Shown here one piece after another: positions 33,894 to 40,175 of a DNA stretch of 64,000 bases. A model generated the notes under the pieces. That model was not told where the DNA came from, ran no database searches, and worked only from the letters and a program-made list of their open reading frames with translations. Position numbers and translations under genes: made by a program. The stretch spans positions 1 to 64,000 of the forward strand of contig CALUXG010000004.1 in assembly GCA_944324685.1 (NCBI GenBank). Direction: 5' to 3'. The stretch is from an uncultured Elusimicrobiales bacterium (lineage in GTDB: Bacteria > Elusimicrobiota > Elusimicrobia > Elusimicrobiales > Elusimicrobiaceae). Each line of letters begins with the position of its first letter. Positions within the stretch are counted from its first letter, which is position 1.

Positions 33894-33970
33894 TGAACTT
33901 ATATATTTTAGCAAATTCTGCGCTTGACGCCTAATGATTCTGTTTTGGGAAAGATTTCCAGAAGTATGTC

Positions 33971-34047
33971 TATTGCACCGGAATATAATTCGCTCTTTTC
34001 TGTAAGCGGTGTCGGCAGGCAAATTAAAAGGGCTTGTATTGTTTTTT
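33971..34047 (+). repeat. Pilin upstream cassette, copy 1
   Basis: This region shares blocks with 39527-39621. A 17-base block TATTGCACCGGAATATA is identical (33971-33987 and 39527-39543). TAAGC-GTG-CGGC follows in both, then AAAAGGG and TTGTATTG before a poly-T run. The copies are 97 and 109 bases from the start codons, so the upstream DNA was duplicated with the gene. Confidence 0.8.
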
Positions 34048-34061
34048 TTTTTTGATAAATT
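34034..34061 (+). promoter_or_regulatory. Pilin promoter 1 with a 12-T tract in its spacer
   Basis: TTGTAT at 34034-34039 and TAAATT at 34056-34061 flank a 16-base spacer that contains 12 consecutive T (34042-34053). The -10 box ends 6 bases before the ATG, so the start of transcription is predicted at 34068, the first base of the ATG. Confidence 0.5.
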
Positions 34062-34089
34062 TTGTTCATGAACAAAATTTATCAAAAAA
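34048..34089. repeat. 42-bp perfect palindrome centred on the pilin start codon
   Basis: The 21 bases from 34048 to 34068 are the exact reverse complement of 34069-34089, with no loop. The core right arm starts TGAACAAAATTTATCA. The centre is TTCA|TGAA, so the ATG at 34068-34070 is at the dyad axis. The N-terminal codons (MNKIY) lie in the right arm. A near copy is at 39622-39651. Confidence 0.95.
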
Positions 34090-34583
34090 GCTTTTCTTTT
34101 GTAAAAAACCCCGCCAAAAGGCGATTAGGCGGCTTTACGCTTGCAGAATTTTTAGCAGTTGTATTGATTCTGGCCATTTTGGCAGCGATTGCTTGGCCCC
34201 GATATCAGACAGCCGTATGGAAAAGCCGATACGTACAGCTGATAACGGGGGTGGACCGTCTTTCCGAAGCTCAAGAAATATATTATATGGAAAACGGAAT
34301 TTATGATGCGGACGGAACAAAGCTGTCTGTGTCCCAGCCGCCGGCGTGGTCTTCCCGCGCTTTTATACAGCTTAGAGAAAATGGCAAGGTATATGTGGCT
34401 GCGTTTTATGATAAACCCTTGTATTATGTGCGTTACCAGAAAGGACATGGCGGTTCCCGACAATGCCGTGTATTAGGTAAAGATAAAATAGACCATCGCG
34501 TATGCAGCTCTTTAACCGGAATAGCCGTACATATGAATGCGGATGATCTGAGTGTTTTTAGCTATTATCGGTTTCCGGATTAA
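34068..34583 (+). CDS. Type IV pilin-like protein (22-residue leader), cassette 1
   Basis: A 171-residue pilin-like protein. A positively charged 22-residue leader starting MNKIYQKS ends in GG, then FTLAEFLAVVLILAILAAIAWP with Glu at +5, the N-terminal helix of type IV pilins. The body has AQEIYYMENGIYD, shared with the pilin at 39636. Two Cys near the C-terminus (QCRV and RVCS) probably form a loop. It has no Shine-Dalgarno sequence; the start lies in a palindrome and the transcript is predicted to be leaderless. It stands alone between tRNA-Glu and ychF. Confidence 0.9.
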   Translation: MNKIYQKSFSFVKNPAKRRLGGFTLAEFLAVVLILAILAAIAWPRYQTAVWKSRYVQLITGVDRLSEAQEIYYMENGIYDADGTKLSVSQPPAWSSRAFIQLRENGKVYVAAFYDKPLYYVRYQKGHGGSRQCRVLGKDKIDHRVCSSLTGIAVHMNADDLSVFSYYRFPD

Positions 34584-34621
34584 TGGATTTTTTGGATATA
34601 ACGAGAAGGTTATGCTCGCCT

Positions 34622-34643
34622 CCCGCCTTCCGGCGGGGTTTTT
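34622..34643 (+). terminator. Terminator of pilin cassette 1
   Basis: CCCGCC at 34622-34627 pairs with GGCGGG at 34632-34637, then GTTTTT. The 3' arm and tail GGCGGGGTTTT recur in the terminator of the other cassette (40179-40204). Confidence 0.85.
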
Positions 34644-39526: not shown

Positions 39527-39621
39527 TATTGCACCGGAATATATAAGTTCCGGAGTTTTTCTTTTGTTTTTTTAATAAGCTGTGCCGGCTGTTTTAAAAG
39601 GGATTGTATTGTTTTTTTTTT
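39527..39621 (+). repeat. Pilin upstream cassette, copy 2
   Basis: This is the counterpart of 33971-34047. It has the same 17-base block at 39527-39543, then TAAGC-GTG-CGGC, AAAAGGG and TTGTATTG. In this copy the first block also forms the stem of the helicase terminator (CCGGAA/TTCCGG). Confidence 0.8.
39534..39560 (+). terminator. Terminator of the helicase gene
   Basis: CCGGAA at 39534-39539 pairs with TTCCGG at 39548-39553, followed by AGTTTTT. It lies inside the conserved pilin upstream block. Confidence 0.7.
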
Positions 39622-39629
39622 GATAAATT
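39604..39629 (+). promoter_or_regulatory. Pilin promoter 2 with a 10-T tract in its spacer
   Basis: TTGTAT at 39604-39609 and TAAATT at 39624-39629 are as in copy 1, but the T tract is 10 (39612-39621), so the spacer is 14 bases instead of 16. The -10 box again ends 6 bases before the ATG. Confidence 0.5.
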
Positions 39630-39651
39630 TTGTTTATGAACAAAATTTATC
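39622..39651. repeat. Palindrome centred on the second pilin start codon
   Basis: The arms at 39622-39636 and 39637-39651 are reverse complements except for one pair next to the axis (39635/39638, T opposite G). The ATG at 39636-39638 is at the axis, as in copy 1. Confidence 0.92.
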
Positions 39652-40175
39652 GAAAAAAGTCCCCTCTTCAAAAAATCCCCACTAAAAGCGTTTTAAGAGG
39701 TTTTACATTGATTGAGCTCTTGGTGGTTGTGCTTATCATTGGCATATTGGCGGCAGTGGCTTTGCCGCAGTATCAAACGGCGATGGCTAAGAGCCGGCTG
39801 ATGAATTATTATCAGACAGCCCGTGGTATAGGCCGCGCGCAGGAAATCTATTATATGGCTAACGGGACGTATACCACACAGCTAGACAAACTGGATGTGG
39901 ATTATTCCGCTCAGTGTTCTCTGATAAACAGTGCTGATAAAGGGGCGTTTCAGTGCCCATTCGGCTATATAGATAATATTCAAGGAGGAGAAGTCAGCGC
40001 GGAAGGAAGCAATGTGCGTATCCGGTATTATCATGCGGGATATACGTATGAGGTATATTCCCCACATGATGCAGAAATAGTTGTCTGGTTTGCCCATTCT
40101 GCCCACCCTAATCAAACGGAATGTACAGGATATACGGCCTTAGGCCGAAGGCTGTGCGGAAGTTTCAAATTTTGA
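39636..40175 (+). CDS. Type IV pilin-like protein (22-residue leader), cassette 2
   Basis: A 179-residue pilin-like protein. The leader MNKIYRKK... is 22 residues, the same length as in cassette 1, and ends in G before FTLIELLVVVLIIGILAAVALP with Glu at +5. The body keeps AQEIYYMANGTY. C-terminal CTGYTALGRRLC matches the Cys loop of the pilin at 28910. There is no Shine-Dalgarno sequence. It lies alone between the helicase and a small membrane protein, with its own terminator. Confidence 0.92.
   Translation: MNKIYRKKSPLQKIPTKSVLRGFTLIELLVVVLIIGILAAVALPQYQTAMAKSRLMNYYQTARGIGRAQEIYYMANGTYTTQLDKLDVDYSAQCSLINSADKGAFQCPFGYIDNIQGGEVSAEGSNVRIRYYHAGYTYEVYSPHDAEIVVWFAHSAHPNQTECTGYTALGRRLCGSFKF

Follow-up and report, generated by a model that had tools for sequence, protein, structure and literature searches.

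The gene for a type IV pilin-like protein in the stretch of DNA analysed here (the window; 64,000 nt of a contig from an uncultured Elusimicrobiales bacterium) raises the question of why a pilin gene should begin at the exact centre of a long palindrome. The palindrome is 42 bp long; its two arms, 34048-34068 and 34069-34089, match as reverse complements at 100% of positions and leave no gap between them, and the axis falls between the A and the T of the ATG at 34068-34070, the sole usable start of the pilin frame. An earlier note, made from the window alone, had described loop-free, exactly reverse-complementary arms, an ATG at the axis and the lack of a Shine-Dalgarno sequence, and inspection agreed on all three points. 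In place of a Shine-Dalgarno sequence, the ATG is preceded by a T-tract and GATAAATTTTGTTC; read from further upstream, the order is TTGTAT, T-tract, TGATAAATT and then six bases. The reading frame gives MNKIYQKSFSFVKNPAKRRLGG/FTLAEFL. Folded as single-stranded DNA the palindrome reached -16.2 kcal/mol (z = -6.8 against shuffles). An Rfam search of the window at gathering scores returned tRNAs only, the palindrome matching no known RNA family. The features of the locus, and those of a second one in the window, are collected in Table 1.

Table 1. Features of the two pilin loci, in window positions
Feature	Position	Strand	Basis or remark
-35-like hexamer TTGTAT (TTGACT, TTGATT or TTGCAT in many relatives)	34034..34039	+	Position conserved as CTTGNNTNG before the T-tract
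T-tract of 12 T, within the 16-bp -35/-10 spacer	34042..34053	+	12 T in 113/155 copies
Palindrome left arm, lying over the -10 and discriminator; outer half-site TTTTTTGATA	34048..34068	+	Complementarity; own-genome conservation block -26 to +22
Extended -10, TG-A-TAAATT (-10 hexamer 34056-34061)	34053..34061	+	Architecture matched in class B pilin promoters
Predicted transcription start 7 nt past the -10, coinciding with the A of the ATG (leaderless mRNA)	34068	+	Spacing only
Type IV pilin-like gene, 171 aa	34068..34583	+	PF07963 (N_methyl), 24.1 bits (cut-off 21.2)
Palindrome right arm, outer half-site TATCAAAAAA	34069..34089	+	TATCAAAA hardly changes, also in copies with a variable inner right arm
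Intrinsic terminator of the pilin gene	34621-34638		Sequence scan
Second-copy promoter: TTGTAT, T-tract spacer (14 bp), TAAATT	39604..39629	+	
Second palindrome copy TTGATAAATTTTGTTTATGAACAAAATTTATCGA, imperfect at the centre (one central mismatch)	39620..39653	+	
Second pilin gene, head as in the first, 179 aa	39636..40175	+	PF07963, 28.7 bits

Both window genes scored above the Pfam cut-off for PF07963, a family defined by the N-terminal methylation motif G/FTLxE and a hydrophobic helix. The two loci also have in common a stretch, ATTGCACCGGAATATA, some 80-100 bp 5′ of the palindrome (33970-33988 and 39531-39546), which suggests that a longer ancestral region may lie behind both.

A 24-bp core of the palindrome, searched for with up to three mismatches, occurred at 12 sites in the 1.40-Mb window genome and at none for a reversed-pattern control, so chance does not account for it; leaving part of the centre free brought the number of copies to 21. 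All 12 sites of the first set preceded a pilin-like frame starting with MNKIYQK or MIKIYQK (frameshifted in L010), in a genome with 76 N_methyl (PF07963) genes. Where enough flanking sequence was available, 145 of 155 copies lay directly 5′ of an in-frame type IV pilin gene; the other ten were for the most part frameshifted pilins or perfect copies read on the reverse strand, and L202, also among the ten, was a pilin missed by the search pattern. No non-pilin site, such as the promoter of a regulator gene, was present among the copies found, which counts against the operator reading given below. A scan of 150 relatives, mostly metagenome-assembled genomes (MAGs), detected up to 53 pattern matches per genome inside one Elusimicrobiota genus, while outside that genus the counts were 0-3, equal to the control. 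Copies from one genome are not independent of each other. A stricter pattern combining promoter and palindrome was present in one of the six genera of the family. Among the matches listed, the named carriers were MAGs of uncultured Elusimicrobiales, Elusimicrobium sp. and Candidatus Avelusimicrobium excrementipullorum. The earlier note had made its reading depend on the core recurring at the pilin starts of relatives, where it was indeed found. Its view that such a start is out of the ordinary holds for pilin genes at large, but many pilins of this genus begin in this way. The central letters of most copies are TATG, not CATG, so the fully perfect 42-bp dyad is the exception. Among the heads of the window genome the conserved block covered roughly -26 to +22, counted from the ATG, with a sharp drop on both sides. 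Taken over the genus, the palindrome looks like a shared control switch of the whole pilin gene family.

Some variants depart further from this form. Locus L218 (G052:C9) holds two copies, one a perfect palindrome with ATA replacing ATG at the axis and the other with its right arm lost to an A-run; such natural variants could be used for testing. In genome G011, which is without class A (defined below), the pilins L220 and L229 have a less strict form of the palindrome, TGATAnnTTTTAT...ATAAAAnnTATCA, at the equivalent promoter position and upstream of a Shine-Dalgarno sequence.

The palindrome overlaps a promoter of constant geometry. Class A copies share CTTG-NNT-NG, a T-tract and TGATANNTT, corresponding to a -35 region, a 16-bp spacer and an extended -10, and the dyad axis lies 7 nt past the -10, at the transcription start predicted from spacing. 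Sigma-70-type features, namely a TANNNT -10, an extended TG and a -35 some 16-17 bp before it, were seen in relatives (TTGACT-16-TGATAAATT) and in class B pilins; the window -35, TTGTAT, is weak, a point against the operator reading, and was too weak to be called in a consensus promoter scan of this strand. Class B comprises some 30 other pilins of the window genome, the promoters of which (TTGACTCG-T12-GATACCCT) are of equal type and lack the palindrome; the symmetry is therefore not needed for promoter function. It might be proposed that the right arm is a promoter in its own right, i.e. an antisense extended -10 firing leftward from the same point. The mirrored right arms of genome G049 keep the TG, T-12, A-11 and largely T-7 (-10 and -9 vary), and the window has an antisense promoter-like match. 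However, no antisense -35 was conserved (information was low at +30 to +36), the geometry is unlike that of known bidirectional promoters, and symmetric co-variation at a free -10 position would be left unexplained, making such a mirror-image promoter hardly credible.

The T-tract of class A promoters ranged from 5 to 17 in length, with a sharp mode at 12. Such changes would alter the -35/-10 spacing, and a slippage switch is possible. A second pilin class of about 30 genes (L015-L018, L021, L024-L031, L034-L043 and others) combines the same T12 promoter with a short, conserved ORF in the leader, MAKNQTPLRRVFERLNAVIGRK, which extends as far as the start of the pilin; depending on how long an A-run is, the two are fused in frame or overlap as ATGA.

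A further set of copies, class A', separates the start codon from the palindrome. These have the form TGATAAATTTTATC-NNNN-GATAAAATTTATCA, with AGAC, AGAA, GGAA or similar as the loop and the ATG downstream, behind a Shine-Dalgarno sequence; the fuller form, TGATAAATTTTATC-NNNN-GATAAAATTTATCAAAAAA-GAGG-n7-ATG or close to it, was found in six genomes (G001, G008, G016, G042, G046 and G050). Neither the -10 nor the axis nor the 30-bp span differs from class A. The start codon, which the earlier note had taken to be the thing centred, is thus displaced downstream, and the distance between axis and -10 stays as it was. This ties the palindrome to the predicted transcription start; in class A the ATG would lie on the axis for no other reason than that the predicted mRNAs have no leader. 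The same note's suggestion that the palindrome acts as DNA is most likely correct. Judged by the -10 spacing, transcription is predicted to begin at the ATG, and relatives have the core at their pilin starts. Retention of the right arm solely for the peptide MNKIYQK was considered and rejected: in L054 the frame is shifted and the arms are still paired, and in class A' the right arm stays outside the coding sequence.

A transcript that included both arms would form a hairpin of -17.6 kcal/mol, its loop holding the AUG, as expected if a hairpin on a longer transcript buried the start codon for translation control or as an RNA thermometer. Yet the -10 lies inside the left arm, RNA beginning at the predicted start had an ordinary fold (z +0.35), and class A' retains the palindrome with the ATG outside it. 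Further, the changed cells of the outer stem showed no G·U excess, which argues against an RNA helix. This explanation was set aside as improbable. That the palindrome block is kept in class A' although non-coding counts instead for an operator. We give about an even chance to the reading that the palindrome is the operator of a putative dimeric regulator, placed over the -10 and the start of mostly leaderless pilin mRNAs.

The symmetry of the arms was followed in 255 heads, among the first matches listed per genome, collected with patterns that specified the left side and allowed any sequence on the right. At the pair 4/25 of these heads, again among the matches listed, A:T was found in 207, C:G in 24 and G:C in three, with few asymmetric cells outside G049. 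Permuting right arms within genomes reached the observed pairing in 0 of 20000 trials at 4/25 and at 11/18, and in 61 of 20000 at 12/17. Within G016 and within G050 the two half-sites change together (A:T versus C:G), which would not be expected of a simple operator and counts against that reading. The pair 5/24 shows another symmetric event, a C:G change in G024, and L054 has a substitution and an insertion that are paired across both arms. At the window-gene locus itself, beside ychF, the pair is A:T in G000 and G046 and C:G in G016. On a tree of the pilin bodies of G016 and G050 the variant letter needs at least 13 changes; for either of the two main variants, branches with strong support force four changes, and the fully supported sister pair L269/L284 differs in both arms together. 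The letter changes on this tree do not support one old duplication as the source of the symmetric variants, although some of the scatter could stem from conversion of heads between paralogues. As judged from these data, the symmetry is kept, not merely inherited.

Such co-variation is what the main rival to the operator predicts directly. In a DNA hairpin or cruciform switch the arms would self-pair under negative supercoiling and either hide the -10 or offer a hairpin to RNA polymerase; the pairing itself would be selected, a specific protein would be unnecessary, and the whole leaderless pilin repertoire would be gated by DNA topology. The co-variation is strong at 4/25 and 11/18 and weaker at 12/17, the symmetric events are independent (C:G, G:C, the neighbouring-pair C:G in G024, and the paired substitution and insertion in L054), four tight copies have DNA hairpins of -15.5 to -17.8 kcal/mol, and a T-tract flanks the palindrome. 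The same data bear on another rival, in which the symmetry has no current function: the family would have spread with its head, the left arm being kept as promoter and the right arm being kept complementary by replication template switching and gene conversion. Template switching perfects quasipalindromes (PMC7202029) and can imitate compensatory change (PMC8794818), and on the pilin tree the palindrome letter has a scattered distribution, as expected of head replacement or conversion.

The outer ends of the palindrome bear on both rivals. The GATA..TATC span was 30 bp in 248 of the 255 copies (among the matches listed), class A' included. In G049 the left arm is constant and the right arm varies as CAAAA(TT/TC/CT/AT/AA)TATC, and the inner right arms have decayed in G012, G063, G014 and G034 too. 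With these five loosened genomes pooled, the outer-right TATCAAAA was 0-3% variable, while inner positions varied by up to 38% (62% in one genome). A hairpin that lost its middle would not be expected to retain its ends, nor would it hold the span at 30 bp when loop length could vary freely; moreover, perfect 11-bp arms occurred in just one of 37 G049 copies (among the matches listed), and one imperfect G049 copy folds at -10.2 kcal/mol. The hairpin or cruciform is on balance unlikely. A symmetry without function, which we regard as still more doubtful, is at odds with an outer right arm that is nearly invariant where the inner arm clearly escapes homogenization, with the sharp conservation edges at -26 and +22, and with the retention of the block by related pilins in which the leader immediately downstream is barely alignable. 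A purely mutational origin is possible; it leaves the outer half-site unexplained. What is found, two half-sites at fixed spacing overlapping a promoter, is what the DNA of a dimeric-regulator operator should show, and the fixed 30-bp span with its conserved outer half-sites suits a protein that reads two sites about three helical turns apart.

In the operator mechanism that we infer, including its transcription start point, the existence of the regulator protein and the sign of regulation, the palindrome would be the shared promoter-operator of one class within an expanded, dispersed pilin family. RNA polymerase would use TTGNNT, 16 bp that are mostly T, and TGATANNTT, and would initiate at the dyad axis, most copies giving a leaderless mRNA the first base of which is the A of the ATG. 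The mirror half-sites, TTTTGATANNTTTTG, would lie one over the -10 and the other at about +8 to +19, spanning 30 bp; a putative dimeric (or dimer-of-dimers) regulator bound to them would block or gate initiation, and all class A pilins of one cell would respond together. Template switching between the arms during replication probably helps to make changes at tolerated positions symmetric.

A site for recombination or transposition, by which pilin genes are moved or their coding regions swapped, was among the options of the earlier note and is now disfavoured. The copies are many and dispersed, and the pilin beside ychF is present in some species and absent from others. Nevertheless, at this one locus the segment missing from the empty sites of G001, G020 and G042 reaches from just after a tRNA gene, on the 5′ side of the promoter, to a point past the terminator, so that its edges lie well outside the palindrome. 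Every copy keeps its own promoter, and searches of viral contigs and phage records returned no palindrome matches. A role in moving pilin genes is very improbable.

The genomes of this gut Elusimicrobiota genus, of about 0.9-1.8 Mb, hold from tens to more than 100 pilin-like genes, and a common start-site element on up to 53 pilins per genome offers a direct handle on the pilin regulon of mostly uncultured organisms. Arm co-variation is a signal commonly taken as proof of RNA structure; the natural variants (symmetric, half-decayed and ATG-free) could separate protein recognition, DNA pairing and template switching as its causes.

Repeats and other elements were also seen in the leaders of these genes. 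The window pilin has a leader segment, AAAAACCCCGCCAAAAGGCG (34104-34123), that is close to the reverse complement of the terminator of the same gene, CGCCTTCCGGCGGGGTTTTT (34624-34643), and other class A leaders show comparable AAAACCGC...GCGGTTTT repeats at the equivalent place. Eight class A prepilin leaders of the window genome (L004, L005, L006, L011, L032, L050, L054 and L055) are up to about 170 codons long, with in-frame repeats (VILRSCNSGSQPF..., GCRVKASRHDDN...) between the first GGF and the real AGFTLIELL that resemble palindromic repeat elements inserted into coding sequence. Palindrome-free pilins of relatives (L235-L237 and L241-L246; G040, G060 and G026) have a long, apparently structured 5′ region, CCAAAAACAGTCG...ACGGCTGTT...GGCCGTTTTT, which is terminator-like, has apparently paired changes and gave no Rfam match in the loci scanned.

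Elusimicrobiota reportedly have type IV pilin expansions with large numbers of pilin-like genes. The genomes studied here are alike in this; a start-site palindrome common to pilin genes was not described in the open-licence papers searched. The HrcA-CIRCE system has an inverted-repeat operator of about 30 bp over the transcription start, with two half-sites around a short spacer. The pilin palindrome is likewise a long inverted repeat of about 30 bp at the start region, but its sequence is unrelated, its regulon consists of pilin paralogues instead of chaperones, its regulator is putative, and its half-sites co-vary within one genome. The promoters of the phage N4 virion RNA polymerase, which are of the hairpin or cruciform type, also have an inverted repeat at the promoter and a potentially extruded DNA hairpin; the palindrome differs in belonging to a predicted bacterial sigma-70-type promoter and in its longer, AT-rich stem, and its extrusion is hypothetical. 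In bidirectional bacterial promoters (Warman et al. 2021, as described in PMC10268837) the -10s are reciprocal and the distance between the divergent starts, 7-25 bp, is usually 18 bp. Symmetry of the -10 is common to both, but in the palindrome the mirrored -10s point towards one another, which places the two predicted starts together at the axis and not 7-25 bp apart; a bidirectional promoter of that type was rejected. Finally, hairpins maintained by template switching (PMC8794818) resemble the palindrome in their paired changes in both arms and their perfected inverted repeats. They were described for RNA genes, whereas the fixed span and the outer half-sites of the pilin palindrome suggest that selection has been added.
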